Below, piece by piece: positions 27,621-47,562 of a stretch of 64,000 bases of DNA (the first letter of the stretch is position 1; each line of letters opens with the position of its first letter). This DNA comes from Acrocarpospora macrocephala (GTDB lineage Bacteria; Actinomycetota; Actinomycetes; Streptosporangiales; Streptosporangiaceae), in assembly GCF_009687865.1 (NCBI RefSeq), contig NZ_BLAE01000025.1:49461-113460 (forward strand), read 5' to 3'. A program made the position numbers and the translations under genes. The notes beneath the pieces were generated by a model that was given only the letters and a program-made list of their open reading frames with translations, did not search any database and had not been told where the DNA came from.

Positions 27621-27656
27621 CATCTCTTATGATGAGACGGAAATATCGGGATATGG
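27621..27656. promoter_or_regulatory. NdgR-type box 1 between leuC and ndgR
   Basis: CATCTCTTATGATGAGACGG starts a 36-bp unit containing TCTC-TTATGAT-GAGA and, further on, TATCGGGATATGG. It is matched at about 27 of 36 positions by box 2. It lies 40-75 bp upstream of the leuC start, suited to control of leuCD. Confidence 0.75.
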
Positions 27657-27689
27657 AACTCTACCGGCTGCTTGTTGGTAACGCGTTTG

Positions 27690-27725
27690 CATCTCGGATA
27701 GCGAGACGGCAGTATCGGGGTATGG
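27690..27725. promoter_or_regulatory. NdgR-type box 2, overlapping the ndgR start codon
   Basis: CATCTCGGATAGCGAGACGG contains TCTC-GGATAGC-GAGA and continues into TATCGGGGTATGG, whose ATG is the ndgR start. Binding here would repress ndgR itself (autoregulation), as reported for IclR-type leucine regulators. Confidence 0.75.
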
Positions 27726-28438
27726 ACAACTCTAGCGGAGTCGGGGTACTCGACAAGGCCGTTCTCGTGCTCAACGCTCTGGAGGCGGGCCCGGCTTCGC
27801 TGGCCCAGCTGGTGCAGGCCACCGGCCTGGCCAGGCCCACCGCCCACCGCCTGGCCGTGGCCCTGGAACACCACCGCATCGTCTCCCGCGACACGCAGGG
27901 CCGCTTCATCCTCGGCCCCCGGCTGTCCGAGCTGTCCACCGCCGCCGGCGAAGACCGCCTGCTCGCCGTCGCCGGACCCGTCCTCACCCAGCTCAGGGAC
28001 CAGACCGGCGAAAGCGCCCAACTCTACCGCCGCCAGGGCGACGAACGCGTCTGCGTCGCCGCCGCGGAACGCGCCAGCGGCCTCCGCGACACCGTCCCCG
28101 TCGGCTCCGCCCTCCCCATGCTCGCCGGCTCCGCCGCCCAGATCCTCCTCGCCTGGGAAGAACCCGACCGCCTCCACCGCGGCCTGCGCGGCGCCAAGTT
28201 CACCGCCGCCACCCTCGCCAGCGTCCGCCGCCGCGGCTGGGCCCACAGCGTCGGCGAACGCGAACAGGGCGTCGCCAGCGTCTCCGCCCCCATCCGCGGC
28301 GCCGGCGGCAAGGTCATCGCCGCCGTCTCCGTCTCCGGCCCCATAGAACGCCTCAGCCGCACCCCCGGCCGCCTCCACGCCATCCCCGTCGTCACCGCCG
28401 CCGAACGCATCACCGAAGCCATGCGCCGAGCCAACTAA
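27722..28438 (+). CDS. ndgR: IclR-family regulator NdgR (LtbR-type) of leucine/branched-chain synthesis
   Basis: A 238-aa IclR protein: winged helix at residues about 8-65 (LDKAVLVLNALEAGPASLAQ, ATGLARPTAHRLAVALEHH) and an effector-binding domain with SGLRDTVPVGSALPMLAGSAAQ and GVASVSAPIRGAGGKVIAAVSVSGP. Its place, divergent from leuCD, is that of NdgR in Streptomyces and LtbR in Corynebacterium, which control leuCD, leuB and other amino-acid genes. ATG 27722 has no ribosome site and overlaps an operator-like box. Matching boxes lie before leuB, cimA and a 43-aa gene near serA. Confidence 0.95.
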   Translation: MDNSSGVGVLDKAVLVLNALEAGPASLAQLVQATGLARPTAHRLAVALEHHRIVSRDTQGRFILGPRLSELSTAAGEDRLLAVAGPVLTQLRDQTGESAQLYRRQGDERVCVAAAERASGLRDTVPVGSALPMLAGSAAQILLAWEEPDRLHRGLRGAKFTAATLASVRRRGWAHSVGEREQGVASVSAPIRGAGGKVIAAVSVSGPIERLSRTPGRLHAIPVVTAAERITEAMRRAN

Positions 28439-28742
28439 CCCAAGGCCTCACCCCGCCGCGGTTACTCGAACAAATCAGCAGCTTGACCCGGCTGGTTCTC
28501 CCACGGTACGAAACGAAAAGATGGTGGAAGAACCACAGCACCGTAGTCGTTTCGGGTGGGGAAACCACGGTGATGGTGGGCGCGGGCGGAGCCCGAGGTG
28601 GAGCAAAAGGGCTAGATGGCTGGGAGTCTCACTAGCCCACGCCTAACCCTGGCGATTCACGTCCGTGTCAAGTTGATCAGAACCCCGGGCCGGACAGGCT
28701 AACCGATTAGAGTGCGTGCCCTGTTAGCCCTAGGCTGGCGGG
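28439..28742. repeat. Gene-free 300-bp region with long inverted repeat and dispersed-repeat core
   Basis: GGTTCTCCCACGGTACGAAACG (about 28494-28515, given here as two halves: GGTTCTCCCAC, CGAAACG) pairs imperfectly with CGTTTCGGGTGGGGAAACC at about 28548-28566. At 28583-28595 CGGGCGGAGCCCG is the dispersed-repeat core in reverse orientation, followed by CCATC-type and GGTTTCC-type flanks that match the 88-bp units at 971. No gene seen. The hairpin may terminate ndgR. Confidence 0.7.
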
Positions 28743-30446
28743 GTGACAGATCGCATCGAGGCGGCCGCGGCGGAACTGCGTCCCCTGCTCCAGGAGTTCA
28801 TCCTCTGGGCGCCGTCCCACGCGCCAGGCAACGACCCCGACCTGGTGGGCCCGGCGGCGCTGTGGCACCGGCTCACCGCGAGCGACGACGTGGGCCGGTG
28901 GCGGCGCGGCGATCTGCGCACCGTCCTGCTGGAACGAATGCCCCAGGTAGTCGAGGATCCCGACGAGGCAGCCGACGGCATGCTGCCCGCAATCCGCGCG
29001 TACCTGACATTCCTCTCCGAGACCGGCCGCCTCACCAAGGGCTCAGACTCGCTGGAGGAGCTCCTCGCCGAGCTCGACGAACTCGAAGAGGAGTTCGTCG
29101 ACAAGATGGAGGACGCCATCGCCGAGCGAGACTGGGACGAGGAGGAGGACGACGAGGTCGAGGAGGACGAGAGCCTCGGCGACTTCGAGCCGTTCGCCGA
29201 CGAGATCGCGGAGCTGCCCACCATCCGGCTCCGCCCCGACGTCGAACTGGCCGCCGCCGCCCGCACCGTCCCGCTGATCGCCCAGGCCCGCGACCTCGCC
29301 GTCTGGGTCGGCGTCAAGCGCAAGGTCGGCGCCGAGACCCTGCTCAGCGAGGGCGAGATCCGCGAGGCCCTCGACGCGCTCGGGCTGACCGAGCCGCAGA
29401 AGCTGTGGAACCTCTGGAACCTCGCCATCGACCTGGAGTTCCTCACCCCCGACGGGGAGGACACGGTCAGCGTCGACTCCGACACCGCCGCCTGGCCGTT
29501 CGAGGACGACGAGGACGTGCTGGACGCCTGGATGCTGGGCCTGCACTCGATCGACTACGGCGACCCCGAACTCGACGACGACGACCTCACCCTGGCCCTC
29601 TCCGGCCTGACCCGCGAACTCCTGGTCCGCGTCCTGGTCAGCGGCCTCCGCAAACCCCTCGCCGAACTCCGCGCCGAACTCGCCGAAGCCGTCGCCGAAT
29701 ACGACGATCTGGGCGCCGACGCCTGGTCCGCCGCCGAGGACCCGCTCGCCTCCCCACTCGGCTGGCTCACCGGGTACGGCATGCTCGAGCTCACCGACAC
29801 CGACGAGGTAGCGTTCACCGCCCTCGGCGTGGAAGGCATCGTCCACCTGGTCGACGACGAGGACATCGAGGTCGACGCCAGAACCGCCATCGACGCGATG
29901 ACCGCGCACGACCTGCTCTCCGCCAGCGCCGACATGTCCGAAGAGGAAGCCGACGCCGAGTTCGCCGCCTGGATGCGCCTGCGCGACCCCGCCACCGCCG
30001 CCCACGAACTCCTCGCTGCGGCCGTCGAGGACGAGTCCGACGCCCTCGTCCGCGTCCAGGCCGCCAGCATGGTCGGCTCCCTCGGCGAGATCGCCGTCCC
30101 CGCCTGGCTGGAGGCCCTCAAGGAACCCTCCCTGCGCCCCTACGCCGCGACCCACCTCACCCAACTCGACGTAGAAGACGCCCCCGAACCCACCCAGGCC
30201 GACACCCACTGGCTGATCCTCGACATGTGGACCATCTCCGCCGGCCTCGGCCGCCCGGAATTCGTCAGCAGCCTCGAAGACATCGGCCCCGCCACCGACC
30301 TCATCGGCCTCCTCGACGTCATCTGGAAGGTCCGCCACCCCCACGTCGAAGAACTCCTCGAAGCCATCGGCGACGCCCACCCCGACAAACAAGTCACCAA
30401 AGCCGCCAAACGCGCCCTCTTCAAGGCCCGCTCCGGCGGCCAGTAG
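28743..30446 (+). CDS. Large acidic protein of unknown function, HEAT-like C-terminus
   Basis: A 567-aa protein with GTG start and strongly acidic character, including an Asp/Glu-rich stretch at about residues 115-150 (DEEEDDEVEEDES). No catalytic motif, signal peptide or membrane segment is visible. The C-terminal third (about 420-560) alternates short helices (AAHELLAAAVEDESDALVRV, VQAASMVGSLGEIAVPAWLE, ALKEPSLRPYAATHL) in a HEAT/armadillo-like way, suggesting a protein-interaction scaffold. I recall similar long acidic hypothetical proteins in actinomycetes but no function. It is transcribed alone and followed by a clear hairpin. Confidence 0.85.
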   Translation: MTDRIEAAAAELRPLLQEFILWAPSHAPGNDPDLVGPAALWHRLTASDDVGRWRRGDLRTVLLERMPQVVEDPDEAADGMLPAIRAYLTFLSETGRLTKGSDSLEELLAELDELEEEFVDKMEDAIAERDWDEEEDDEVEEDESLGDFEPFADEIAELPTIRLRPDVELAAAARTVPLIAQARDLAVWVGVKRKVGAETLLSEGEIREALDALGLTEPQKLWNLWNLAIDLEFLTPDGEDTVSVDSDTAAWPFEDDEDVLDAWMLGLHSIDYGDPELDDDDLTLALSGLTRELLVRVLVSGLRKPLAELRAELAEAVAEYDDLGADAWSAAEDPLASPLGWLTGYGMLELTDTDEVAFTALGVEGIVHLVDDEDIEVDARTAIDAMTAHDLLSASADMSEEEADAEFAAWMRLRDPATAAHELLAAAVEDESDALVRVQAASMVGSLGEIAVPAWLEALKEPSLRPYAATHLTQLDVEDAPEPTQADTHWLILDMWTISAGLGRPEFVSSLEDIGPATDLIGLLDVIWKVRHPHVEELLEAIGDAHPDKQVTKAAKRALFKARSGGQ

Positions 30447-30453
30447 CCACGCG

Positions 30454-30478
30454 ATGGCCGAGCCTCCCGCTCGGCCAT
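30454..30478 (+). terminator. Hairpin after the acidic-protein gene
   Basis: ATGGCCGAGC, loop CTCCC, GCTCGGCCAT: perfect 10-bp stem 8 bp after the stop codon. No U-tract follows, which is common in actinomycete terminators. Confidence 0.7.
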
Positions 30479-30564
30479 CCCCGCGAACACCCGTCACGCG
30501 TAGCCAAAAGTCATCAAATGTGATTCAGGCACACATTTCATGATGCTCTCTTCTCGATCTTGGC

Positions 30565-31226
30565 TTGGGCAGCGGAGGCTGGACCGACAGCGCCGGACAT
30601 CCCACGAGATCGCCTGAAGTACCTAATCATTCAAGAAATGTCTGCCTGAACCTCAAATGTCCTGTTCAGCCAACGGTCGCGACATCGGCGCGGCTGCCCG
30701 TAGCCAACCATGAGGATCGCAGGCCGCTGGGGCCGCCCGAGGCCTATCTGCGGGGGGTGTGGGAAGACCGCGACTGGCGTAACGTGCCAGGCCCCTTCTA
30801 CGGTGCGCAGACAGACTCCTGTTGGATGGGCCGGGACATCGCACCGCGCCACATCGTCTACGAAGACGAGTGCGGCAGCGAGGTCGTCTTCCGGCAGCCG
30901 CAGAGCCCCCAAGAGGTTCATCTTGTGCTGACAGCGGCGTGGAACGACCCATTCTGCGCTTACGCTGGCGACGGCGACAATCATTGGACGCTCGAGCTCA
31001 TCCGCGAGTGGTGGGCCAGCCGCGAACGGCTTGCCGCCTGGATCGACGACGTGCGTCGCCGATGGTCGGTCAGCGAGCGCGAGGACGAGCGGAGAACGCG
31101 CTGGGGCTGGGCGACTACTCAAGCTATCTGGACAATGGGCTCGCAACCTACCTGCGAGAATACGGATTCTGGCTGGACAACCGCCGTTCACCGATGCCGG
31201 ACGAAAAACTGCCGAAACTCGGTTAG
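30565..31226 (+). pseudogene. Frameshifted small actinobacterial protein (WEDRDWRNVPGPFYGAQTD family)
   Basis: From about 30715 the frame reads LGPPEAYLRGVWEDRDWRNV, then PGPFYGAQTDSCWMGRDIAP and DNHWTLELIREWWASRERLA, a pattern I recall from widespread actinomycete proteins of unknown function (sometimes annotated as ferredoxin without iron-sulphur motifs). After SVSEREDER at about 31092 the similarity jumps to another frame (ENALGLGDYSSYLDNGLATY, LREYGFWLDNRR) that ends at TAG 31226. One base is missing between GAGCG and GAGAAC. The N-terminal start is also unclear; the only in-frame start is a TTG at 30565 without ribosome site. A sequencing error would explain the frameshift equally well. 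Confidence 0.7.
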
Positions 31227-31273
31227 CGGCCGCCCAACCAGCGGCCTGCCCGATGCTGCAGGTCAACCCGAAA

Positions 31274-31490
31274 ATGCTCACACGGCTGGCCGAATTGGAA
31301 CAGGATCTTCTCCACGGCGGCAGCGAGTCGAGACGGAGGGGTGGCTCGGCGAGACGATGGCATCAACACGACTCTGACCTTCCTCCGGGCAAAGCCAAGC
31401 CGATGCTGCTCGAACAGCCCGGTGGCCAGCCGAGTTCTCCTACTGGCAGACCTGCTGATGCGTCTGCTCAACAAGATCGAGGAGTCTTGA
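31274..31490 (+). pseudogene. Degenerate remnant with two frameshifts (recombinase-associated helical protein type)
   Basis: Three consecutive pieces in three frames: MLTRLAELEQDLLH (from ATG 31274), then RQRVETEGWLGE, then DGINTTLTFLRAK running to TGA 31490. Joined, they match a helical protein pattern (LxELExDLLxRRxRAExEGWLGExxGIxxTLTFLRxK) that I recall from genes near actinomycete recombinases. Loss of single bases at about 31312 and 31356 would account for the shifts. With the preceding frameshifted gene this marks a decayed patch. The rest of 31227-31576 holds nothing else I can support. Confidence 0.5.
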
Positions 31491-31576
31491 GCTAAGGCCG
31501 TGGGTGACGGTTGCCCACAGGGCGCTGGTGGGGCGCGTTGAGCCGCGGCCCAGTCGAGCGGGAACACATCAGAGAG

Positions 31577-32302
31577 TCACCACGGCACGACTCCATTGTC
31601 GTCGAACAGCTGGCCGGTAGGGCCGTCGTCAGGCAGAGCCGCCAATCGGATGGCGATCACCGCGCCCTGCTCAGGGGTCTGAGTACCGCTGAAACCATTG
31701 AGGTCGGTGGCCACGTAGCCGGGGCAGGCGTTGTTAATCAAGATGTTGGTGTCGCTCAGCTCCTTGGCGTACTGGATGGTGACGGCGTTGAGGTAGGTCT
31801 TCGTCGGCGCGTACGCCCCGCTGATCCCTCCGAGGTCGACACCGGGCGTGGTCTGCAGGGCCAGAGAGCCGACATGGCTGGACTGGTTGACGATCCGCGG
31901 GTGCGCCGAGTGGCGCAGCAGCGGCAGCATCGCATTGGTGACCCGGATGACGCCGATGACGTTGGTCTCCACCAGCCGCCGCACAGTCTCGAGGTCGATA
32001 GTCGTAGGCTCCTCTGGCCAACCGCCTGCAGCGCCGGCGTTATTGACCAGCACGTCAAGGCGTCCCGCTCGCTCCTCGATCAGCTGCGCTGCGGCGGTCA
32101 CGCTCTCGTCGTCGGTCACGTCCAAGGGCACGCCGAACGCGTCGGCACCTGCCGCGCGCAGTTTCGCCACGGCGTCCTTCCTGCGCTGCTCGTCGCGAGC
32201 GCCGACACCGACGCTCCAGCCCAATGCGCCCAGCCCGGCCGCGATCTCGTATCCGATTCCCTTGTTCGCGCCGGTGACCAGCGCGATTGTCTTCTCACTC
32301 AT
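31577..32302 (-). CDS. Short-chain dehydrogenase/reductase
   Basis: Classical SDR, 241 aa: NAD(P)-binding TGANKGIGYEIAAGL, NNAGAAGG, and the active-site YAPTK (Tyr-x3-Lys) with an upstream Ser (NQSSHVGS). The Asn-Lys after TGA and ARD at the second strand favour NADPH. ATG 32302 (MSEKTIALVTGANKG); the longer frame upstream overlaps the LysR gene. It is divergent from a LysR regulator with about 105 bp between starts, the usual arrangement in which the LysR protein controls the enzyme. Substrate unknown. Confidence 0.93.
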   Translation of the reverse strand: MSEKTIALVTGANKGIGYEIAAGLGALGWSVGVGARDEQRRKDAVAKLRAAGADAFGVPLDVTDDESVTAAAQLIEERAGRLDVLVNNAGAAGGWPEEPTTIDLETVRRLVETNVIGVIRVTNAMLPLLRHSAHPRIVNQSSHVGSLALQTTPGVDLGGISGAYAPTKTYLNAVTIQYAKELSDTNILINNACPGYVATDLNGFSGTQTPEQGAVIAIRLAALPDDGPTGQLFDDNGVVPW

Positions 32303-32408
32303 GACAGCGAGCATGGCGGCGCTTTGACCAGGCACCAACACCATCTCGGTAATGCAGCGATACCTGAGCGACATCAATCGACCCGTCCGCCGAACTTACG
32401 GTGAATGC

Positions 32409-33248: not shown

Positions 33249-33297
33249 CTGGCTGTTCTCAATCCGCTCGCGTGGAATGCCACCGGCAGATGCTCGC

Positions 33298-33798: not shown

Positions 33799-33843
33799 GA
33801 GTCTAATTTTCGAACCCAGCTGCCGTTGAGCGCAAATCGGACT

Positions 33844-34821: not shown

Positions 34822-34834
34822 CAGCCCTCCATTA

Positions 34835-34863
34835 GATAGTGACACTTTCGATAGTAACACTGT
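34835..34863 (-). promoter_or_regulatory. Direct repeats upstream of the thioredoxin-fold gene
   Basis: GATAGTGACACTTT and GATAGTAACACTGT lie 15 bp apart, 14-42 bp before the start codon. AGTGACACT is palindromic around one base. Spacing of about one and a half helical turns suggests a regulator site or overlapping promoter; no regulator gene is adjacent. Confidence 0.5.
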
Positions 34864-34913: not shown

Positions 34914-34989
34914 TGGTAGTCCCGAGCGGATTCGAACCGCCGCTACCGCCTTGAGAGGGCGGCGTCCTGGGCCACTAGACGACGGGACC
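34914..34989 (-). tRNA. tRNA-Glu (CUC)
   Basis: 76 nt including an encoded CCA. Acceptor stem GGTCCCG pairs with CGGGACT with a G1-U72 wobble, as in other actinomycete tRNA-Glu genes. The anticodon loop CCCTCTCAA gives CUC, and the T arm is GGCGGTTCGAATCCGCT. It is identical to the copy at 35058. Confidence 0.96.
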
Positions 34990-35038
34990 AAGCTTTTCGT
35001 TCTGACAAGAAACTTTGCAAGCTTTCAAGTCCTTGCGC

Positions 35039-35058
35039 AAACCTCTCTAGAGAGGTTT
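35039..35058. other. Perfect 20-bp palindrome between the two tRNA-Glu genes
   Basis: AAACCTCTCTAGAGAGGTTT, whose last base touches the CCA end of the second tRNA-Glu. It lacks a U-tract and could guide 3' processing of the tandem tRNA precursor or act as a weak terminator. Confidence 0.8.
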
Positions 35059-35133
35059 GGTAGTCCCGAGCGGATTCGAACCGCCGCTACCGCCTTGAGA
35101 GGGCGGCGTCCTGGGCCACTAGACGACGGGACC
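35058..35133 (-). tRNA. tRNA-Glu (CUC), second copy
   Basis: Same 76-nt sequence as the copy at 34914, including the CCA, with anticodon CUC. The genes are 68 bp apart and on the same strand as tRNA-Gln, so the three probably form one transcript. gltX, which charges them, is about 2.3 kb away. Confidence 0.96.
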
Positions 35134-35159
35134 ATGCACCGTGTGTTGCTGAGATGCAG

Positions 35160-35231
35160 CTGGGGTACCAGGACTCGAACCTAGACTAACTGAACCAGAA
35201 TCAGTCGTGCTGCCAATTACACCATACCCCA
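35160..35231 (-). tRNA. tRNA-Gln (CUG)
   Basis: About 72 nt; acceptor TGGGGTA pairs with TACCCCA, anticodon loop TTCTGGT gives CUG, T loop is GGTTCGAGTCC. CCA is not encoded. It is first in the tRNA transcript. Actinomycetes usually load this tRNA with Glu by GltX-type enzyme and amidate it with GatCAB. Confidence 0.95.
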
Positions 35232-39671: not shown

Positions 39672-41327
39672 GTGCCCGGCCGTACCAGAGTTGTTGGCGT
39701 GTTCATCCTGTTCCTGGCGGGGAGCCTGCTGACCGCGCGGCCCGCGTACGCGGCCAGAACGGCGGAGTGCCAGGGTGATTGGCTGCCCGCGACGCCCACC
39801 TCCGAGGACGTGATGGCGGGCAAGCTGTCGTTCCTCGATCTGCCCGCGGTTCAGGTGGGCGAGAAGGTGAACTGGAAGCTCAATCCGTACAAGAACCGGT
39901 CCTGGCAGATGGTGTTCCATTCGCTGCGCTGGATGGGGCGGCTGGTCGCCGACTTCGAGACCACCGGCAAGGCCGCGTACCTGGCCAGGGCGACCGAGGT
40001 GGCGAAGGACTGGGTGGCCAAGAACCCGCCCGGGGGCGGCGCCGACTACGCGTGGGCGGAGCATCCGGTGGCATTGCGGGCGCCCGCGCTGGTGTGCCTG
40101 AGCAGGCATGTGCCGGACAAGTGGCTGCGCGACAGCCTGTCGCAGCATGCCCGGATCCTGGCCAACGACAAGCACTACGAGTGGGGTCACAACCACGGGC
40201 TCGACCAGGACATCGGCCTGCTCGGCATCGCCTGCCGCTACGACAACAAGGCCTGGCGTTCGCAGGCCATTCGCCGGATGGTGAAGACCACCACGCTGGA
40301 CGTGGACTCGCAGGGCGCGCTGCGCGAGCAGGCTCCCCGCTACGCGGTCTACTTTCACGACCGGCTCCGCGTGGCCATGGACAAGATCAAGGACTGTGGC
40401 CTGAAGGTCCCCGCCGACCTGGCCAAACGCTGGGATCTGCTGCCCGAGCACATCAGCGCGGCCACCCAGCCGGACGGCTACCTGGTCCCCATCGGCGACG
40501 GCCCCGCCGACGTGCAACCGGCCGCGTTCGACCGCCCGGACTCGCTGGTGCAGGTCTACCGCGCCGGCTACGTCTTCGGCCGGACGAAGTGGGACTTCAA
40601 GGAGTCGGCCTACTACTCGATCCGGTACGGCCCCGGCCTCAAGTTCCACGGCCACGAGGACCATCTCGGCGTCACGTACTACGCGCAGGGCCGCAACCTG
40701 CTCACCGAGGCGGGCTTCCACTCCTACGAGAACACGCCCTACCGCCGCTGGACGATCACCCCGGAGGCGCACAACGTGCCGATCGTGTCCGGGAAACGGT
40801 TCCGCGGCGGCGTGGCGTCCACGCTGACCAAGAAGTCGATCGGCAAGGACCGCCAGTCGTTCACGGTCACCGACACCGCGTACGGCACCCGCCGGACCCG
40901 GGCGGTGCTGGTCAACCACGACGAGGACGTCATGGCCGTGTACGACACGGTCAGCTCGGGCAAGGTACGCAACCTGTGGCACCTCTCGCCATCGCTGAAG
41001 GTGGCCTCCAACGCGGGCGGCAAGGTCGTGGTGAGCGACGGCGCCTGGCGCGCGTCGATCGTGCAGCTGGCGCTGCCGGGGTGCAAGCCGGTCGGCGGGC
41101 AGAAGATCGTGCGTGGCCAGACCTCGCCTTACCAGGGCTGGATCTCCGGGTCGTACATGAAGAAGGAGGCGGCCTCGGTGGTGCAGTCGCCGTCGGCGAA
41201 GGCGCTGCTCACGCTGGTGGTGCCGGGCACCGACCAGCCGGACGTGTCGTGTTCGGGCCGGACCGTCATCGTGCGCACTTCCAACGGCCCGGCCACGTTC
41301 AAGATGTCCGGTAAGGACCTCGTCTAG
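39672..41327 (+). CDS. Secreted heparinase II/III-family polysaccharide lyase-like protein
   Basis: 551 aa. A signal peptide (VVGVFILFLAGSLLTARPAYA) precedes an (alpha/alpha) helical domain with RSWQMVFHSLRWMGRLV and EWGHNHGLDQDIGLLGIA, and a C-terminal beta-sandwich with the family hallmark HGHEDHLGVTYYAQGRNLLTEAG. This is the heparinase II/III layout; these enzymes cleave uronic-acid polysaccharides by beta-elimination. The GTG at 39672 has GGAAGGA 6 bases upstream and is preferred to the ATG at 39657. It runs against its neighbours, and its stop codon overlaps that of cimA within one CTAG. The substrate could be a host or cell-surface glycan. Confidence 0.9.
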   Translation: MPGRTRVVGVFILFLAGSLLTARPAYAARTAECQGDWLPATPTSEDVMAGKLSFLDLPAVQVGEKVNWKLNPYKNRSWQMVFHSLRWMGRLVADFETTGKAAYLARATEVAKDWVAKNPPGGGADYAWAEHPVALRAPALVCLSRHVPDKWLRDSLSQHARILANDKHYEWGHNHGLDQDIGLLGIACRYDNKAWRSQAIRRMVKTTTLDVDSQGALREQAPRYAVYFHDRLRVAMDKIKDCGLKVPADLAKRWDLLPEHISAATQPDGYLVPIGDGPADVQPAAFDRPDSLVQVYRAGYVFGRTKWDFKESAYYSIRYGPGLKFHGHEDHLGVTYYAQGRNLLTEAGFHSYENTPYRRWTITPEAHNVPIVSGKRFRGGVASTLTKKSIGKDRQSFTVTDTAYGTRRTRAVLVNHDEDVMAVYDTVSSGKVRNLWHLSPSLKVASNAGGKVVVSDGAWRASIVQLALPGCKPVGGQKIVRGQTSPYQGWISGSYMKKEAASVVQSPSAKALLTLVVPGTDQPDVSCSGRTVIVRTSNGPATFKMSGKDLV

Positions 41328-42898
41328 GGCGTGTAACCCGCGCGGAGTAGGCCGAAGGTGACGGCCTGCTCCAGGGCCTGCCAGGAGGCCTCGATGATGT
41401 TCTCGTCCACGCCCACGGTGGCCCACTCGGCGGTCTCGTCGCTGGAGGTGATCAGCACGCGGGTGATCGCGTCGGTGCCGTGGGTGCCCTCCAGGATGCG
41501 GACCTTGAAGTCGATCAGTTCGACCGCGGTCAGCTCGGGGTAGATGCCCTCGAGCGCCGTCCTGACCGCCCGGTCCAGGGCGTTGACCGGGCCGTTGCCC
41601 TCGCCGGTGGCGACGATGCGCTCGCCCTTGGCGTGCAGCTTGACGGTGGCCTCGGAGGCGACCTCGCCGGACGGGCGGCGTTCCACGATGACGCGCCACG
41701 ACTCGACCGCGAAGTGGCGGCGGCGCTCGCCGTGCACGCTGTCGCGCAGCAGCAGCTCGAAGGAGGCGTCGGCGGCCTCGAAGGTGTAGCCCCGGGACTC
41801 CATCTCCTTGACCCGGTCGACCAGCTCGCGCGACTGGTCGCCGGTCAGCTGGTAGCCCAGCTCGCGGCCCTTGAGCTCGACCGAGGCGCGCCCGGCCATG
41901 TCGGAGACGAGCATGCGCATGTCGTTGCCGACCTCGGCGGGGTCGATGTGCTGGTAGAGGTTGGGGTCCACCTTGATGGCGGAGGCGTGCAGCCCGGCCT
42001 TGTGGGCGAACGCCGACACGCCGACATACGGCTGGTGGGAGTTGGGGGTGACGTTGGTCACCTCGGTGATGGCGTGCGCGATCCTGGTCATGTCCCGCAG
42101 CGACTGCGGCGGCACCAGGTCGTAGCCGCGCTTGAGCTGGAGGTTGGCGACCACGGTGAACAGGTTGGCGTTGCCGGAGCGCTCGCCGTAGCCGTTGGCG
42201 CAGCCCTGCACGTGGGTGGCGCCGGCGCGGACGGCGGCGAGGGTGTTGGCGACCGCGCAGCCGGTGTCGTCGTGGCAGTGGATGCCGATCCTGGCCGAGG
42301 TCTGGGCCGCGTGGTGCACCACGTCGGCGAGCTCGTCGGGGAGCATGCCGCCGTTGGTGTCGCACAGCGCGATCACCGAGGCGCCCGCCTCGGCGGCGAC
42401 CCGGATGACCTCCAGCGCGTACGCCGGGTTGGACTTGTAGCCGTCGAAGAAGTGCTCAGCGTCCAGGAAAACCCGCTGGCCCTCCGCATGCAGGTGGGAG
42501 ACCGTGTCGCGGATCATCGCGAGGTTCTCCTCCAGGGTCGTGCGGAGGGCCAGTTCCACGTGCCGGTCGTGACTCTTGGCGACAAGAGTCACGATCGGCG
42601 CGCCGGATTCGCGCAGAGCGGCGACCAAGGGGTCGTCGGCCGCCTTCACCCCGGCCCGGCGGGTCGCGCCGAACGCGGTGAGCTGCGCGTGCTTCAGGTC
42701 GAGCTCGGTCTGAGCCCGCCGGAAGAATTCGGTGTCCTTGGGGTTGGCGCCCGGCCAGCCACCCTCGATGAAACCCACGCCGAGGCCGTCCAGGTGCCGC
42801 GCGATGACCAGCTTGTCGGCGACCGAGAGGTTCAGGCCTTCCTGCTGCGCGCCGTCGCGCAGGGTCGTGTCGTACACGTGGAAAGCGTCGTCAGCCAT
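41324..42898 (-). CDS. cimA: Citramalate synthase
   Basis: Condenses pyruvate and acetyl-CoA to (R)-citramalate, the threonine-independent entry to isoleucine; LeuCD and LeuB in this window complete the path to 2-oxobutyrate. 524 aa: N-terminal DRE-TIM barrel (VYDTTLRDGAQQEGLNLS, HCHDDTGCAVAN, CANGYGERSGNANL) and a C-terminal LeuA-type allosteric domain. ATG 42898 with AAAGGAG upstream. The 5' region contains a leader peptide, competing hairpins and a terminator, so it is likely controlled by attenuation as well as by an NdgR-type box. Confidence 0.95.
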   Translation of the reverse strand: MADDAFHVYDTTLRDGAQQEGLNLSVADKLVIARHLDGLGVGFIEGGWPGANPKDTEFFRRAQTELDLKHAQLTAFGATRRAGVKAADDPLVAALRESGAPIVTLVAKSHDRHVELALRTTLEENLAMIRDTVSHLHAEGQRVFLDAEHFFDGYKSNPAYALEVIRVAAEAGASVIALCDTNGGMLPDELADVVHHAAQTSARIGIHCHDDTGCAVANTLAAVRAGATHVQGCANGYGERSGNANLFTVVANLQLKRGYDLVPPQSLRDMTRIAHAITEVTNVTPNSHQPYVGVSAFAHKAGLHASAIKVDPNLYQHIDPAEVGNDMRMLVSDMAGRASVELKGRELGYQLTGDQSRELVDRVKEMESRGYTFEAADASFELLLRDSVHGERRRHFAVESWRVIVERRPSGEVASEATVKLHAKGERIVATGEGNGPVNALDRAVRTALEGIYPELTAVELIDFKVRILEGTHGTDAITRVLITSSDETAEWATVGVDENIIEASWQALEQAVTFGLLRAGYTP

Positions 42899-42945
42899 TG
42901 GGATCCGTCTCCTTTGGGAGGTCCTGCCAGCATGCCCCGTCAAAC

Positions 42946-42985
42946 AAAAAGACCCCTCACGGGCGTGAGAGGTCTGCGCGCTGGC
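42946..42985 (-). terminator. Attenuator terminator in the cimA leader
   Basis: GACC-C-CTCAC / GTGAG-A-GGTC stem (42951-42974) followed on the minus strand by TTTTTGTTTG, lying between the leader peptide and cimA. GCGCGCTGGC (42976-42985) next to it pairs perfectly with GCCAGCGCGC (43000-43009) over the last codons and stop of the leader peptide. Together they form the usual attenuator pair. Confidence 0.88.
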
Positions 42986-42996
42986 GGTGTCCTGAG

Positions 42997-43038
42997 TCAG
43001 CCAGCGCGCCTGCCGATAATGAGCAGACGGTAAGTCAT
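42997..43038 (-). CDS. cimA leader peptide MTYRLLIIGRRAG
   Basis: A 13-residue open frame with CCGGAG 4 bases before the ATG. Its control codons are Leu-Leu-Ile-Ile, matching the end products of the cimA route. The stop codon lies at the edge of a perfect 10-bp hairpin. Ribosome stalling on scarce Leu-tRNA or Ile-tRNA would open the alternative fold and let transcription pass the downstream terminator. Inferred from structure, as in known branched-chain attenuators. Confidence 0.85.
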   Translation of the reverse strand: MTYRLLIIGRRAG

Positions 43039-43082
43039 GGTGCTCCGGAGTCTGCCATACGACTCGCGATATGGCACATTGA

Positions 43083-43097
43083 TCTCAGGATGCGAGA
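43083..43097. promoter_or_regulatory. NdgR-type box upstream of cimA
   Basis: TCTCAGGATGCGAGA, the TCTC-N7-GAGA palindrome also seen at leuC/ndgR, leuB and the 43-aa gene. It lies about 45 bp upstream of the cimA leader peptide and 26 bp from the divergent O-methyltransferase start, so either gene may respond. Confidence 0.7.
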
Positions 43098-43122
43098 CGC
43101 GCACATGATCTAGGGTGGGCGT

Positions 43123-43773
43123 ATGAAGGCGTCTTACCAGGATCCGTCGGTGCCCGCCTACGTGGCCGCGCACGCCACCCAGCCCGATCAGACGCTGCGC
43201 GAGCTGGCCGTGGAGACGGCCGCGCTGACCGGCGGGAACGCGGAGATGCAGATCAGCCCGGAGCAGGGCACGCTGCTGACCATGCTGGTGCAGCTGACCG
43301 GGGCGAAGCTGGCGGTCGAGGTGGGGACGTTCACCGGGTACTCGTCGATCTGCATCGCGCGGGGTCTGGTGCCGGGCGGCAAGCTGATCGCCTGTGACGT
43401 GAGCGAGGAGTGGACGGCGGTGGCCCGGCGCTACTGGGAGAAGGCCGGGCTCACCGATCGCATCGAGCTGCGGCTCGGCCCGGCGCAGCAGACGCTGGAG
43501 GCGATGCCGGAGGACGAGCCGATCGACTTCGCCTTTATCGATGCCGACAAACCCGGATATGCCGGGTATTACCACGAGCTGGTGGACCGGCTCGCGCCCG
43601 GTGGGCTGATCTGCGCGGACAACACCCTGCAGGGCGGGCGGATCGCTCACGCGCGGGCGGGCGGGAACGTGCCCGCCATGCGCGCCTTCAACGACCTGGT
43701 CACCGCCGACCCGCAGGTCGACTCCGTGCTGCTCCCGATCGCGGACGGGCTGACGCTGATCCGCAAGCATTGA
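43123..43773 (+). CDS. Class I SAM-dependent O-methyltransferase (CCoAOMT-like)
   Basis: 216 aa. SAM-binding motif VEVGTFTGYSSICIARGL, then CDVSEEWTAVARRYWEKAGL, FAFIDADKPGYAGYYHELV with the metal-binding Asp, and ADNTLQGGRIA with the Asp-Asn pair of cation-dependent catechol/caffeoyl-CoA methyltransferases. It therefore probably methylates a catechol or hydroxylated natural product with a divalent metal. Divergent from cimA with an NdgR-type box in between, but no metabolic link is obvious. Confidence 0.93.
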   Translation: MKASYQDPSVPAYVAAHATQPDQTLRELAVETAALTGGNAEMQISPEQGTLLTMLVQLTGAKLAVEVGTFTGYSSICIARGLVPGGKLIACDVSEEWTAVARRYWEKAGLTDRIELRLGPAQQTLEAMPEDEPIDFAFIDADKPGYAGYYHELVDRLAPGGLICADNTLQGGRIAHARAGGNVPAMRAFNDLVTADPQVDSVLLPIADGLTLIRKH

Positions 43774-43791
43774 GGGTTATTTACTGAAATA

Positions 43792-44883
43792 TCAGCAGAT
43801 CTTGTGGACCCAGCCGTGGTTGTCGGGGCGGGTGCCGTACTGGATGCCCATCAGTTCCTCGCGGATCTTCAGCGTGACCGGGCCGGGATTGCCATCGCCG
43901 ACCGTCCACTCGCGGTCGGCACCCTTCACCGAGCCGACCGGGGTGACCACGGCGGCGGTGCCGCAGGCGAAGACCTCGGTGAGCTCGCCGGAGGCGCAGC
44001 CCTGCTGCCACTCCTCGATCGAGATCTTGCCCTCCGCGACGGTGAGCCCGAGCTCGGCGGCGAAGGTGAGGATCGAGTCGCGGGTGATGCCCGGCAGCAG
44101 GGTGCCGGTCAGCTCGGGGGTGAGCAGGCGGTCGCCGTAGACGAAGAACAGGTTCATCCCGCCCATCTCCTCCACGAACCTGTGCTCGTACGCGTCCAGC
44201 CAGACCACCTGGTCACAGCCCTGCTCGACGGCCTGCCGCTGCGCCACGAACGCCGCCGCGTAGTTGCCGCCGCACTTGGCGAACCCGGTCCCGCCGGGCG
44301 CGGCCCGGGTGTATTCGGTGGACAGCCACACCTTGACCGGCTTGACCCCACCCGCGAAGTACGACGCCGCCGGCGAGGCGATCGCCATGTACCGGTAGGT
44401 CTTGGACGGGTAGTTCACGCCAAGCCCGACCTGCGTGGCGACCATGAACGGCCGCAGGTAGAGGCTGTGCCCCTCGGTGGTCGGCACCCAGTCCCGATCG
44501 GTCTGCACGAGGAGTTCGAGCGACTCCACGAACGTGTCCTCGGGCAGCTCCGGCATGGCCATGCGCGCGGCCGACCGGTTGAACCGGGCCGCGTTGGCGA
44601 ACGGCCGGAACGCGACGATCGCCCCGTTCGCCTGCCGATACGCCTTGAGCCCCTCGAACAGCTCCTGGGCATAGTGGAACACCGAGGTCGCCGGGTCGAG
44701 CACCAGCGGCCCGTACGGCTCGACGCGGGCGTCGTGCCAGCCCTGGCCCTCGGTGAAGTCGATCGACACCATGTGGTCGGTGAAGATCTGCCCGAAGCCC
44801 GGGTTCGCCAGAATCCGCTCGCGCTCGTCCCGCCCACGGGCGTTCGGATTGCGCTGCAGGTCGAAGCTGAGCTGGGTGATCAT
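43792..44883 (-). CDS. ilvE: Branched-chain amino acid aminotransferase
   Basis: Last step of Leu, Ile and Val synthesis. Fold-type IV PLP enzyme, 363 aa: [18 protein letters not shown], the PLP lysine in [17 protein letters not shown], and [16 protein letters not shown], then the phosphate-binding [18 protein letters not shown] 44883 with AAGGAACCTCGCC upstream (AGAGAGAAGGAA). It lies downstream of leuB on the same strand, but a strong terminator separates the two, so it has at least partly independent transcription. Confidence 0.97.
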
Positions 44884-44940
44884 GGCGAGGTTCCTTCTCT
44901 CTACTCTGCTAATGGAAACTTAGGGCATTTCGCGGGGAAC

Positions 44941-44980
44941 AAAAAAGCGCACGGCGGCCCTTTGCGGGCCACCATGCGCT
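44941..44980 (-). terminator. Terminator after leuB
   Basis: AGCGCAcGGcGGCCC, loop TTTGC, GGGCCaCCaTGCGCT: a 15-position stem with three mismatches (lower case), followed on the minus strand by TTTTTT. It lies 20 bp after the leuB stop and 57 bp before ilvE. Confidence 0.92.
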
Positions 44981-44999
44981 CAGGTGTGTGTGGCCGGCG

Positions 45000-46046
45000 T
45001 CAGCCGGCTACTCGGGCGGCGATGTCGTCGCCGATCTCGCGGGTCCGGCGGGCCACCCACGCGCCCTGCCGTTCGACCAGGTCGTCGGCGACGGCCTGCT
45101 CGACCCGGGCCGAAGCCTCGGCGAAACCGAGGTGATCCAGCAGCATCGCGACGGACAGGATCGTGGCCGTCGGGTCGGCCTTGTGCTGGCCCGCGATGTC
45201 GGGGGCGGAGCCGTGCACCGGCTCGAACATGCTGGGCGCGGTCCGGTCCGGGTTGACGTTGCCGCTCGCGGCTAGGCCGATGCCGCCCGCGATGGCGGCG
45301 CCGATGTCGGTGATGATGTCGCCGAACAGGTTGTCGGTGACGATCACGTCGAACCGCTGCGGCTGCGAGACGAAGAACATCGAGGCCGCGTCGACGTGGC
45401 AGTAGTCGGTGGCGACCTGGGGGAACTCCTCGGCAACGCGGTTGACCGTGCGCTGCCAGAGGTCACCGGCGAAGGTGAGCACGTTGGTCTTGTGGACCAG
45501 GGTGAGCTTGCGCCGCTCCCGGCTCGCGGCCTTGGCGAAGGCATACCGCACGACGCGCTCGACGCCATACGCGGTGTTCACGGAGTCCTGGGTGGCGATC
45601 TCCTGCGGGGTGCCCTTGCGGAGCACGCCGCCCGCGCCCGCGTAGGGGCCCTCGGTGCCCTCACGGACGACGATCATGTCGATGTCGCCGGGCAGCACCT
45701 TGCCGAGCGGGGTCTCCACGCCGGGGAACAGCTTGACCGGGCGCAGGTTGACGTAGTGGTCGAGCTGGAACCGCAGCTTCAGCAGCAGGTCGCGCTCCAG
45801 CACGCCGGGCGGCACGCTCGGATCGCCGACCGCGCCGAGCAGGATCGCGTCGAAGCCGCGCAGCTCGTCGAGGACCGGGTCGGGCAGCGTCTCGCCGGTC
45901 GCGTGGTAGCGCTTGGCGCCGAGATCATACTGCGTCGGCTCGACCTTCACCCCGGCCGCGTCCAGGACCTTCAGTCCCTCGGTCACGACCTCGATGCCGA
46001 TCCCGTCGCCGGGGATCACCGCCAGCCGGATGTTGCTCGAATCCAT
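45000..46046 (-). CDS. leuB: 3-isopropylmalate dehydrogenase
   Basis: NAD-dependent oxidative decarboxylation in leucine synthesis (and of methylmalate in the citramalate route). 348 aa: [28 protein letters not shown], the VHKTNVL segment with the catalytic Lys region, and [53 protein letters not shown] at 46046. A TCTC-N7-GAGA box lies 21 bp upstream of the start, consistent with NdgR/LtbR control known for leuB in other actinobacteria. Confidence 0.97.
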
Positions 46047-46066
46047 GCGCGTACCCTACTAGTCCA

Positions 46067-46081
46067 TCTCGTAGATCGAGA
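46067..46081. promoter_or_regulatory. NdgR-type box upstream of leuB
   Basis: TCTCGTAGATCGAGA, an exact TCTC-N7-GAGA match flanked by CA and AC as at leuC. A further TCTCATCATC half-site follows at 46087. Located between the end of the ROK gene and leuB. Confidence 0.75.
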
Positions 46082-46091
46082 ACCTATCTCA

Positions 46092-47282
46092 TCATCCGGG
46101 CGTGACCGTGCGCTCGAACACATAGTCCCTGGCCGCGGCCAGGCCGACGGCGAGCGCGCCGAGCAGCACGGCGTCCTGGCCGATCGAGGAGACCTCGATC
46201 CGCGGTGGCCGTAAGGCCACCAGCGCCTCCAGGCGTTCGGCCACCCGGCCGGCCAGCAGGTCGCCCGCCTGGGCGCCGATGCCGCCGCCGAGCACGACCA
46301 GTTCGGGGTCGAGCACGGCGGTCACCCCGGCCAGCGCGTGCGCGATGTGGTCGATCTCGGCGTCCAGCACCCGGGCCGCCAGCGGATCCCCGGCTCTGGC
46401 CGCGTCGAACACATCCTTGGCGGTGGCGCTGTCCAGGCCGAGCCGCCGGGCCAGCGCCACCACGCCGTCGGCGGAGGCCACCGACTCGAACATGCCGCGC
46501 CCCGGGTTGACGCGCGGGTCGCCCTCCCCCACCGGCAGGTACGAGATCTCCCCCGCCGCGCCCCGGGAGCCGCGATAGAGCTTGCCGTCGATGACGACGC
46601 CCATGCCGATCCCGGTGCCGATGGAGACGAAGACGAAATGCGAGACGCCCTGCCCCAGGCCGTACGCCCCCTCGCCGACGGCGGCCAGGTCCACGTCGTT
46701 CTCCAGCACGTACGGCGCGGCGACCACCTCGGCGAGCCGGTCTACCACGCCGGGCAGCTCCCAGCCGGGCAGGTTGGGGGCCAGCAGCAGCGCGCCGGTC
46801 TCCTTGTCGTGGATGCCGGGCGTGCCGAACACCGACAGCGTGATGTCCTCGGCGGCCAGCCCGGCGTCGGCCAGCAGCGCGGCAGCGATCTCGGTGAGCT
46901 GTGCGAGCAGCGCGTGCGGGGTCTCGGCCCTGGACGGTTCATCCCGCCGGGCCACGATGTCGCCGATCAGGTCGGCCAGGGCCAGCCGGACGTAGTTGCG
47001 CCCGACGTCGATCGCGAGCACCCATCCGGCCTGCGGGCGGATCTCGTACAGCAGGGCGGCGCGGCCCGCGTTGCCGGTGCGCAAACCCACCGCGCGGACC
47101 AGTTTGGCGCGCTCCAAATCTGCGAGAGCCACCGAGATCGTCGGTTTGGACAGGCCGGTGGCCTGGGCAAGCTCAGGCCGGGAGACCCGCCCCATCCGGA
47201 AGATCTCGCCGAAGACCGCCCGCTCGTTCATCACCCGGAGCAGGCTCGTCGTGTTCGCGGTCACGCCGCCGATGCTCACCAC
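46092..47282 (-). CDS. ROK-family transcriptional regulator
   Basis: 396 aa. N-terminal winged helix (AVFGEIFRMGRVSRPELAQA, TGLSKPTISVALADLERAKL) followed by an ROK sugar-kinase fold (AIDVGRNYVRLALAD, TPGIHDKETGALLLAPNLPG, VSIGTGIGMGVVIDGKLYRG). The zinc-binding CxCGxxGCxE motif of ROK kinases is missing; the segment reads GDPRVNPGRGMFESVAS, with no cysteines. So it is a repressor of the NagC/XylR type rather than a kinase, but one that has lost the structural zinc. GTG start. It precedes leuB on the same strand by 45 bp. Confidence 0.93.
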   Translation of the reverse strand: MVSIGGVTANTTSLLRVMNERAVFGEIFRMGRVSRPELAQATGLSKPTISVALADLERAKLVRAVGLRTGNAGRAALLYEIRPQAGWVLAIDVGRNYVRLALADLIGDIVARRDEPSRAETPHALLAQLTEIAAALLADAGLAAEDITLSVFGTPGIHDKETGALLLAPNLPGWELPGVVDRLAEVVAAPYVLENDVDLAAVGEGAYGLGQGVSHFVFVSIGTGIGMGVVIDGKLYRGSRGAAGEISYLPVGEGDPRVNPGRGMFESVASADGVVALARRLGLDSATAKDVFDAARAGDPLAARVLDAEIDHIAHALAGVTAVLDPELVVLGGGIGAQAGDLLAGRVAERLEALVALRPPRIEVSSIGQDAVLLGALAVGLAAARDYVFERTVTPG

Positions 47283-47347
47283 ATCCCAAGGTTGGCATAT
47301 TCCCCCAACAACGCGAGGGTGCAGTTGATCACGGCGGGGCAGCGGTT

Positions 47348-47479
47348 CTAGCGCTGCGGGGAGCCGCCGTTGTCGCGGCGGTCGAGAGCCGTCTGGAGCG
47401 CGTCCGCGGCTTCGTCCTGGCGCTCGTCGATCGGGTGGTTGTGCCCTGGACGGTTGTTCCAGGGATACATGTCATACAT
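47348..47479 (-). CDS. Undescribed 43-aa protein between ROK and serA genes
   Basis: The protein reads MYDMYPWNNRPGHNHPIDER followed by QDEAADALQTALDRRDNGGS and PQR. The first half is aromatic and His/Pro/Asn-rich (MYPWNNRPGHNHP), the second a short charged helix. AGGAGG lies 6 bases before the ATG, an ideal ribosome site, but it is enclosed in an 11-bp hairpin that ends one base from the ATG. A perfect TCTC-N7-GAGA palindrome sits about 65 bp upstream, in the gap after serA. No membrane segment or cysteine. I do not recognise it; the expression signals argue that it is real and tied to amino-acid control. Confidence 0.75.
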   Translation of the reverse strand: MYDMYPWNNRPGHNHPIDERQDEAADALQTALDRRDNGGSPQR

Positions 47480-47509
47480 GGCAGACCTCCTATCTTGCGG
47501 AGGTCTGCC
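47480..47509 (-). promoter_or_regulatory. Hairpin enclosing the ribosome-binding site of the 43-aa gene
   Basis: GGCAGACCTCC, loop of 8, GGAGGTCTGCC: a perfect 11-bp stem. On the transcript the 3' arm contains AGGAGG and ends at the base before AUG, so the folded form would block ribosome entry. This is the layout of translational switches and RNA thermometers. Confidence 0.8.
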
Positions 47510-47541
47510 AGAATACCGCAGCCATCTCAGTGGACGACCGT

Positions 47542-47562
47542 GCATCTCACCATATGAGATGC
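47542..47562. promoter_or_regulatory. NdgR-type box upstream of the 43-aa gene
   Basis: GCATCTCA-CCATA-TGAGATGC, the most symmetric copy in the window of the TCTC-N7-GAGA palindrome (TCTC at 47545, GAGA ending 47559). It lies 3 bp from the serA stop and about 63 bp from the start of the 43-aa gene. Confidence 0.75.

Follow-up and report, generated by a model that had tools for sequence, protein, structure and literature searches.

The LtbR gene of Corynebacterium glutamicum neighbours leuCD, and its product is reportedly, in work attributed to Brune et al. in 2007, an IclR-type repressor of leucine genes. In Streptomyces coelicolor, the targets of NdgR include the ndgR-leuC, leuB(-ilvE), ilvBNC and ilvD regions as well as cysteine and sulfur genes, and the ChIP-seq consensus is [GT]T[CT]CAC[CA][CTA][TC][GC][TC]GGAC, of the GTCC-N7-GGAC type, according to the passages on the regulon in PMC4340878. 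A consensus for NdgR/LtbR published in 2021, KTYCRSMWYSYGRRM, is given in the passages on this motif in PMC8222616. Leader peptides at ilvB and a LEU element at leuA are likewise known in Actinobacteria from the sections on leaders of a 2005 survey (PMC1262725) and, in S. lividans, of a 2021 one (PMC8079986). The window described here (the whole 64-kb stretch of DNA that was analysed) carries genes of the same pathway, with a repeated palindrome in front of them.

Intergenic palindromes in the window

Five exact TCTC-N7-GAGA sites occur in the window:

27623-27637, unstranded: second box, on the leuC side of ndgR, exact motif, within a segment duplicated from the ndgR promoter
27692-27706, forward strand: putative NdgR box of ndgR, exact motif at a conserved offset (-30 to -16 from the ATG)
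43083-43097, reverse strand: putative NdgR box of cimA, exact motif, its 5' edge lying 59 nt ahead of the ATG of the leader peptide
46067-46081, reverse strand: leuB box B, exact motif spanning -35 to -21 relative to the leuB ATG, kept in relatives
47545-47559, reverse strand: box A of a small gene, exact motif directly after the serA stop

An earlier note on this DNA had reported the five matches at these coordinates, had placed them in non-coding DNA and had expected about one chance match per 64 kb. All three statements hold: none of the sites lies inside genes as called in this analysis, and dinucleotide shuffling predicts 0.98 sites against the 5 observed, with five or more in 0 of 100 shuffles. 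By themselves, the eight fixed bases have no genome-wide specificity, as a scan of the 12.1-Mb genome returned 240 forward and 240 reverse matches that, because the motif is palindromic, represent 240 sites, or about one per 50 kb; the weight therefore rests on clustering and conservation. This abundance, together with the CTCC/GGAG cores of many of the 240 sites, is what one would expect if the matches were chance or coding-driven TCTC/GAGA repeats in a GC-rich genome. The probability of such an origin is nonetheless negligible, given the excess over the shuffled expectation, the intergenic position of all five sites and a conservation at fixed positions across species that contradicts it at the ndgR, leuB, ilvB and cimA sites, and we discarded it on these grounds and on shuffles scored with the matrix described below. 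The repeated palindrome is thus a real, deeply conserved set of putative switch sites.

Definition of the box

Of the motif proposed in the earlier note, the GAGA half-site stood and the strict TCTC half-site did not. The left halves vary among relatives, being mostly GTTC, GTCC or TTTC in their recurrent leuB boxes and likewise one of these in several of their ilvB boxes, so that TCTC-N7-GAGA was abandoned as a full definition. The general form is [GT][CT][CT]C-N7-GAGA[CT], or [GT][CT][CT]C-R-N5-Y-GAGA[CT] in its 15-bp version. Our scoring matrix was trained on boxes of relatives only, and its half-site columns are partly built in because the leuB training sites were chosen by half-site letters. 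It recovers all five exact sites plus two boxes overlooked before:

46087-46101, reverse strand: box A of leuB (GCCCGGATGATGAGA), lying upstream of box B at a distance of 20 bp, matrix score 15.1
61194-61208, reverse strand: putative NdgR box of ilvBNC (GTCCGTATGATGAGA), matrix score 19.8

The 7 top distinct matrix positions in the window all precede branched-chain amino acid (BCAA) operons, ndgR or the small gene. Scores of at least 14.5 occur at 7 positions, against a mean of 1.17 and a maximum of 5 in 100 shuffles, and of 159 box-free 400-bp chunks 1 reaches 12 and 0 reach 14.5. Family searches took the best 30 loci each, and the spacing test left out promoters lacking a gene-sense box of at least 12 (5/17 for cimA, 6/18 for the small gene, 2/21 for leuB and 5/80 for ndgR).

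The seven window boxes differ from KTYCRSMWYSYGRRM, as printed in the passages on the motif in PMC8222616, by 1-5 mismatches (at most three in 5/7 and at most two in 4/7), the poor fits being the 27623 box with 4 and the 46067 box with 5; random GC-rich 15-mers fit with at most three mismatches in 1.2% of cases and with at most two in 0.2%. Likewise, 22 of 29 Streptomyces-like ndgR boxes are within two mismatches of KTYCRSMWYSYGRRM. The window boxes do not fit the S. coelicolor ChIP-seq consensus given in the motif section of PMC4340878 (3-8 mismatches), nor is the conserved -30 box of the 29 Streptomyces-like loci close to it (3-7 mismatches). Within 300 bp in these loci, the best match to that consensus lies elsewhere than the -30 box, with 1 mismatch in 3 and 2-4 in 26; the one-mismatch matches are found at -125 or -126 in three loci named Kitasatospora or Streptomyces.

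ndgR and a duplicated promoter facing leuCD

27722-28438, forward strand: ndgR, IclR-family regulator (Pfam IclR_C and HTH_IclR), start corrected from relatives
26193-27581, reverse strand: leuC, 3-isopropylmalate dehydratase large subunit, over cut-off, corrected start 27581 (MGRTLAEK)
25592-26179, reverse strand: leuD (TIGR00171, 196.3 bits, cut-off 116)
27621-27657, forward strand: second copy of the promoter and start of ndgR, its 37 nt sharing 78% identity with 27690-27726

The ndgR product belongs to the IclR family by its HTH_IclR and IclR_C domains, and its gene adjoins leuCD in divergent orientation, with 56-180 bp between ndgR and leuC in 28 of 30 family loci having a detected leuC start. 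An N-terminus conserved in relatives, MD(N)SSGVGVLDK, fixes the ndgR start at the ATG at 27722 and discards the one at 27629. The two sites formerly assigned to ndgR are thus both present, but neither lies over its start codon as had been claimed for one of them, because ndgR starts at 27722 and leuC at 27581.

The ndgR box is exact and at the same offset in 30/30 family loci (own genome included; the top 30 among the 56 genomes that carry ndgR). In 80/80 named actinomycete loci it lies 30-31 bp ahead of the start codon, 53 of them having the exact motif and 27 one or two changes. The ndgR mRNA is probably leaderless. As the box fills the gap between the putative -35 (TTGCAT) and -10 (CAGTAT) elements, the geometry of this promoter suggests that NdgR very probably represses its own gene.

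The leuC-side box is exact in 9/30 family loci and degenerate in 1, and in the window the 37-nt duplicated segment is followed by 11 nt 91% identical to 27728-27738. Judging by sequence and distribution, this box stems from a duplication of the ndgR promoter confined to this clade, which would have provided the divergent leuCD with a box of its own.

Paired boxes at leuB-ilvE

45000-46046, reverse strand: leuB, 3-isopropylmalate dehydrogenase
43792-44883, reverse strand: ilvE, branched-chain aminotransferase, 3' of leuB (TIGR01123, 418.4 bits, cut-off 250; synteny)

A TAGGGT at -12 indicates that the leuB mRNA is probably also leaderless. Boxes scoring at least 12 were found in 19/21 family leuB promoters (own included), with a partner 20-22 bp away in 18/19. 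This distance equals two helical turns and might allow two dimers to sit on one face of the DNA.

ilvBNC, ilvD, serC and other sites in the genome

59250-61001, reverse strand: ilvB, acetolactate synthase large subunit
58726-59268, reverse strand: ilvN, acetolactate synthase small subunit (TIGR00119, 212.1 bits, cut-off 57)
57702-58700, reverse strand: ilvC, ketol-acid reductoisomerase
61093-61140, reverse strand: ilvB leader peptide of 15 aa, of known type

Among family loci (own included), a gene-sense box of at least 12 precedes ilvB in 26/30 (best 30), and the ilvD promoter has a box in 11/15. In the serC promoter, 17/30 loci reach at least 12 and the best match lies at -55 to -58 in 22/30 (own included; best 30). 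We rejected leuA as a regulon member in this genus, where it has no box and only a leader (MLRGLLLSCRGEGL); leuA boxes were found in 3/15 loci scored, all outside the genus.

The pattern KYYCRNATNNYGAGAY, chosen after the boxes were seen, has 23 matches in the own genome against 1 for the reversed control, and 5 of the 23 are in the window. The 7 copies of TCTCAGATCGTGAGAC form the end of a repeated sequence, probably a mobile element, and were set aside. Beyond the window and this element there are 11 matches, of which 7 fall inside predicted reading frames. The remaining 4 lie before serC, a methyltransferase gene and a solute-binding lipoprotein gene, and one in a gap.

Putative operator and leader upstream of cimA

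41324-42898, reverse strand: cimA, citramalate synthase (TIGR00977, 640.6 bits, cut-off 450)
42997-43038, reverse strand: cimA leader peptide (MTYRLLIIGRRAG*) with LLII; relatives have an LLII, LVII or III run
42976-43009, reverse strand: hairpin with a 10-bp stem, overlapping the end of the leader ORF, with compensatory changes
42950-42975, reverse strand: terminator hairpin and U run before cimA, predicted fold with compensatory changes

The proposed extension of the regulon to cimA agrees with the presence of the exact box in 12/18 relatives examined (L226 and L234, with the gene absent or partial in the stretch, were excluded); the other 6/18 have no exact match, five of them without any box-like match in place, and the promoter scores below 12 in 15/22 edge or outside genomes. 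Downstream of the box, the leader has the features of an attenuator, namely codons for pathway amino acids, a hairpin and a U-tailed terminator, conserved with compensatory changes: 5/21 predicted pairs are changed on both sides with pairing kept in at least one of 13 sequences. RNAfold and RNAalifold predict two hairpins side by side, with no clear antiterminator form that would compete with them, and an Rfam scan of 26000-56000 returned three tRNAs and nothing else. Both cimA and ilvB have a single strong box, placed further upstream, whose partner, if any, is degenerate, and the transcripts would next pass a leader peptide and a terminator, which would place operator and RNA leader in series.

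A small gene between serA and leuB

47348-47479, reverse strand: small gene of 43 aa (MYDMYPWNNRPGHNHPIDERQDEAADALQTALDRRDNGGSPQR), found in relatives, with profile matches
47525-47539, reverse strand: second, weak box (box B, GGTCGTCCACTGAGA) of the small gene, separated from box A by 20 bp, matrix score 10.1
47479-47510, reverse strand: perfect 12-bp hairpin with the Shine-Dalgarno of the small gene (-26.2 kcal/mol, z -4.0)

The 43-aa gene postulated in the earlier note exists, at the corrected position given above. Its profile matches in 64/196 genomes of the class, and the protein, which has no match in Pfam and NCBIfam, has the core ALQxALDRRDNGG. The inclusion of this gene in the regulon is supported by a box-like match at most 400 nt upstream in 17/17 relatives with the gene, against 9/159 such chunks by chance (L218, L219 and L229, where the gene was not found, are excluded from these counts). 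Box A scores 17.1-23.3 in 18/18 promoters (23.2 in the window), and the best second position is +20 in 12/12 promoters scored (own included), with scores from -7.1 to 12.8, a strong and a weaker box that would fit two dimers on one face. In most relatives examined, a Val/Leu/Ile leader peptide also precedes the gene.

The palindrome at 47545 can also be read as an inverted repeat with 8-bp arms and a 5-nt loop, and its perfect pairing a few bases past the serA stop would also suit a terminator ending serA transcription, in place of an operator for the small gene. This is unlikely, since no T run follows it, the box precedes the small gene in all 17 relatives at varied distances from the serA stop, and neither the chance rate of box-like matches nor the matrix scores and constant +20 partner position favour a terminator. 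We tentatively propose, as a possibility that falls short of an even chance, that the 43-aa product is an actinobacterial micro-protein not described so far that belongs to the branched-chain pathway, and that its gene is switched by NdgR via two boxes spaced by 20 bp and, in most of the relatives examined, by a leader peptide of its own as well. The product may be a small regulator or a subunit of a branched-chain enzyme.

The probable binder of the boxes

The boxes are, with high probability, operators of a BCAA regulon for the IclR-family NdgR encoded at 27722-28438. This NdgR reading, already advanced in the earlier note, is strengthened by the conservation of the ndgR box in both locus sets and by the boxes that relatives likewise carry before leuB, ilvB, cimA and the small gene. 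At the sequence level, boxes stand before leuCD, leuB, ilvB and ilvD. In five family genomes without ndgR, 8/10 leuB and ilvB regions score below 12, the exceptions being ilvB of G019 (17.2) and leuB of G036 (12.4), a weak test as these genomes are diverged and 74-98% complete.

Another regulator, such as the ROK-family protein encoded at 46092-47282 or another IclR paralogue, might bind the boxes instead; the ROK gene lies among them, between leuB and the small gene, and its product has a winged-helix domain. We consider this very unlikely and rejected the ROK regulator on synteny: 14/20 stretches of relatives have no ROK match and yet the leuB or small-gene boxes persist there, the most widely conserved box is that of ndgR itself, and 5/7 boxes fit the NdgR/LtbR consensus in the motif passages of PMC8222616. 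NdgR would accordingly be the protein that recognizes the 15-bp pattern observed here.

Comparison with known systems

Like LtbR of C. glutamicum, reportedly an IclR-type repressor of leucine genes, NdgR would act on leucine genes. The KTYCRSMWYSYGRRM motif shares length and geometry with the window boxes and differs in its left half, which here reads TCTC or GTTC/GTCC. The passages of PMC8222616 on the motif mention neither paired boxes nor cimA, serC or the small gene as targets. The leaders resemble the ilvB leaders and LEU element in combining hairpins with a short ORF that contains Leu/Ile/Val codons and is often leaderless, with a U-rich terminator at ilvB, as described in the leader sections of PMC1262725 and PMC8079986. 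The terms cimA and citramalate occur in neither text, and those sections describe neither the cimA leader nor the one preceding the small gene.

Compared with S. coelicolor, where passages of PMC4340878 describe NdgR (SCO5552), the similarities are an IclR-family regulator, an ndgR gene adjoining and divergent from leuCD, a common set of putative targets (ndgR-leuC, leuB(-ilvE), ilvBNC and ilvD), and boxes of 15 bp in which 7 bp separate half-sites of four bases. By contrast, the right half of the ChIP-seq motif is GGAC, while the window boxes have GAGA, and the 34-gene table does not list cimA, serC or a small gene as such; citramalate, serC and phosphoserine are not mentioned in the text of PMC4340878. 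This is therefore a known kind of system, for which evolutionary conservation predicts an NdgR operator at odds with the half-site of the published ChIP-seq motif and suggests how a divergent target may gain an operator, by duplication of the regulator's autoregulated promoter. The predicted regulon would extend beyond the published list to the citramalate entry into isoleucine through cimA, to serC and to a micro-protein.

Palindromes in the window and in the genome

The window holds exactly five copies of TCTC-N7-GAGA, the predicted operator of the IclR-family regulator NdgR, against an expectation of 0.98, and all occur where the earlier note had placed them: 27623-27637 and 27692-27706 (leuC/ndgR), 43083-43097 (cimA), 46067-46081 (leuB) and 47545-47559 (a gene of 43 codons between serA and leuB, hereafter the small gene). 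At least five copies were reached in none of 100 shuffles of the window. The palindrome occurs 240 times in the full assembly of 12.1 Mb in 166 contigs, about once per 50 kb, which makes its eight fixed letters weak evidence by themselves; many listed sites contain CTCC or GGAG cores of the kind met in coding DNA. The pattern KYYCRNATNNYGAGAY, picked after the boxes had been seen, matches the genome 23 times versus once for the reversed control, with five matches in the window, seven in a repeated element and 11 elsewhere. Since seven of these 11 lie inside predicted reading frames and seven others in the repeated element, most matches beyond the window are probably not operators. The repeated sequence, GGGCTGAAGGAGTTCTCAGATCGTGAGACCGAGAGCGATCAGCGGGTTGTG with small variations, carries TCTCAGATCGTGAGAC at seven places (L238, L241, L250, L252, L253, L257 and L258) and probably represents a mobile-element end that mimics the NdgR box.

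A matrix was built on a training set of 61 distinct sites, taken from ndgR in 28 named loci and from leuB in 28 loci of the family Streptosporangiaceae (the latter excluding the genome itself and a genus-mate). It has the form [GT][CT][CT]C-R-N5-Y-GAGA-[CT], into which the letters KYYC and GAGA, used to select the leuB training sites, are partly built. On the window, its seven best distinct positions comprise the five palindromes and two further boxes, at 61194-61208 (ilvB) and 46087-46101 (a second one at leuB). Seven positions score at least 14.5; in shuffles the mean number is 1.17 and the highest 5, and the top single score in any shuffle is 21.7. When the DNA outside the seven boxes is cut into 400-bp chunks, one out of 159 scores 12 or more, at 25627 within leuD. 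Three consecutive tRNA genes occupy 34917-35231 (-).

The ndgR promoter and its duplication

The earlier note had one site overlapping the ndgR start codon, which is wrong: ndgR starts at 27722 and leuC at 27581, placing both sites in the 140-bp intergenic stretch. The sequence ATGGACAA(C/G)TCTAGCGG is present in 30 of 30 family loci, and across ten aligned NdgR N-termini one residue of one row deviates. NdgR was found in 56 of 61 family genomes (E 1e-60, own included), and in the best 30 of these 56 an exact box always precedes the ndgR ATG by 30 bp. In a different collection of 80 named loci, whose species are partly shared with the family set, the box is exact in 53, has one change in 23 and two in four (Kribbella, counted from printed sequences), and lies 30 or 31 bp from the ATG in all 80. 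Microtetraspora, Planotetraspora, Nonomuraea and Actinomadura are among the genera of the closest named relatives. TCTC, GAGA and an ARTATC element are conserved in the column profile, with a variable spacer. If TTGCAT and CAGTAT are, as we presume from the consensus, the -35 and -10 elements, the box would lie between them and the transcript would start at the ATG. Autorepression by NdgR is the safest mechanistic reading here.

Sequence comparison identifies the leuC-side box as duplicated ndgR promoter that retains a trace of the ndgR start: 27621-27657 repeats 27690-27726 (78% identity), followed by an 11-nt piece (91%) at a spacing grown from 69 to 71. Both boxes are exact in nine of the best 30 family loci, which group together as a single clade in a quick tree (support 85). 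A degenerate second box is seen in another locus that falls outside this clade, and with it counted at least two changes are needed.

Other predicted target promoters

At leuB, a box scoring at least 12 occurs in 19 of 21 promoters, 18 of them with a partner 20-22 bp away; the exact palindrome lies within 350 nt in 6/30, four of these within 60 nt of the ATG. The ilvB promoters reach 12 in the sense of the gene in 26/30 cases (lowest best score 8.9). In the window, a long open frame lacking a Pfam match (61041-63947 (+)) overlaps the ilvB leader region and is probably not a gene in that frame. For ilvD, 11/15 score at least 12, all five genus members among them, and leuA has a box in 3/15 loci, none of them in the genus. 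The cimA box is exact in the window and 12/18 relatives; of 22 cimA-bearing genomes at the family edge or outside, seven reach 12, including three of the four with family code f16, which we take to be Streptomyces. The small gene is present in 17 of 20 relatives' stretches, all 17 with [GT][CT][CT]C-N7-GAGA at most 400 nt upstream (exact in ten; chance, 9/159 chunks). Elsewhere in the genome, a box (C63:26786-26801, locus L254) precedes serC (TIGR01366, 643.8 bits, cut-off 402) by about 42 bp; serC loci reach 12 in 17/30 cases, with the best match at -55 to -58 in 22/30.

In five family genomes without ndgR (E 1e-60), eight of ten leuB and ilvB regions score below 12, the exceptions being ilvB of G019 (17.2) and leuB of G036 (12.4). 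Given the divergence of these genomes and their completeness of 74 to 98%, this lends mild support to NdgR as the predicted binder.

A spacing scan detected no second box within 40 bp of the first at ndgR. The best second position at the small gene is +20 in all 12 promoters scored, with scores of -7.1 to 12.8; the second box is thus poor in some of them. At cimA it is +21 in 6/12, the mean profile peaking at +13, ahead of +21; ilvB has a weak mean peak at +21, there merging with the -35 element in the window. By the usual -10 rules, the two boxes of leuB and the small gene would span roughly -55 to -41 and -35 to -21, the cimA box roughly -55 to -41 and the ilvB box roughly -68 to -54. LtbR is called a repressor in the title of Brune et al. 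2007. An S. coelicolor paper describes NdgR as activating these genes (PMC10331944), and the sequence does not decide between the two signs. IclR proteins act on DNA as dimers or dimers of dimers, according to PMC4340878.

RNA leaders

42946-43038 (-), leader peptide of cimA, MTYRLLIIGRRAG*, plus hairpin and terminator; also conserved among relatives
47348-47510 (-), small gene with Shine-Dalgarno hairpin; matched by its profile in 64 of 196 genomes of the class, core ALQxALDRRDNGG

A leader of 12 to 15 residues containing LLII precedes cimA in all 18 sequences parsed by script (of 23); in the five remaining sequences, inspected by eye, the run is LVII (one) or III (four). Downstream come a hairpin and a U-tailed terminator, and an alignment of 13 sequences shows compensatory changes at 5 of the 21 pairs. 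The words cimA and citramalate are absent from two actinobacterial leader papers (PMC1262725, PMC8079986), and a search of open-licence literature for citramalate synthase with leader peptide and attenuation found one paper, on a methanogen. Before the small gene, a second kind of Val/Leu/Ile leader (MRQVLVI..TCRGGA, for example MRQVLVIITCRGGA) is present, by the script's rule, in 11 of 17 relatives (L217, L220, L222-L227, L230, L232 and L233); it is accompanied by a GC-rich hairpin and resembles the S. lividans leuA leader (PMC8079986). The small-gene leader is absent from the five genus genomes, four of which have the Shine-Dalgarno inside a perfect hairpin, the fifth having no hairpin and an almost leaderless start.

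Comparison with published NdgR and LtbR regulons

The 2015 S. coelicolor regulon table (PMC4340878) contains ndgR, leuCD, leuB-ilvE, ilvBNC and ilvD; cimA, serC and the small gene are missing from it, and citramalate, serC and phosphoserine from the text of that paper. No paper linking NdgR with citramalate was found in open-licence literature. The ChIP-seq consensus of that study fits poorly, with 3-8 mismatches to the window boxes and 3-7 to the conserved -30 box of 29 Streptomyces-like loci (S. coelicolor not among them), in which its best match has one mismatch at -125 or -126 in three loci and 2-4 in the others. The 2021 NdgR/LtbR consensus, a comparative one (PMC8222616), matches five of the seven window boxes with at most three mismatches. 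On the sequence evidence, the regulon is real and conserved and its regulator belongs to a known class; the anatomy is corrected here and several new targets are predicted.
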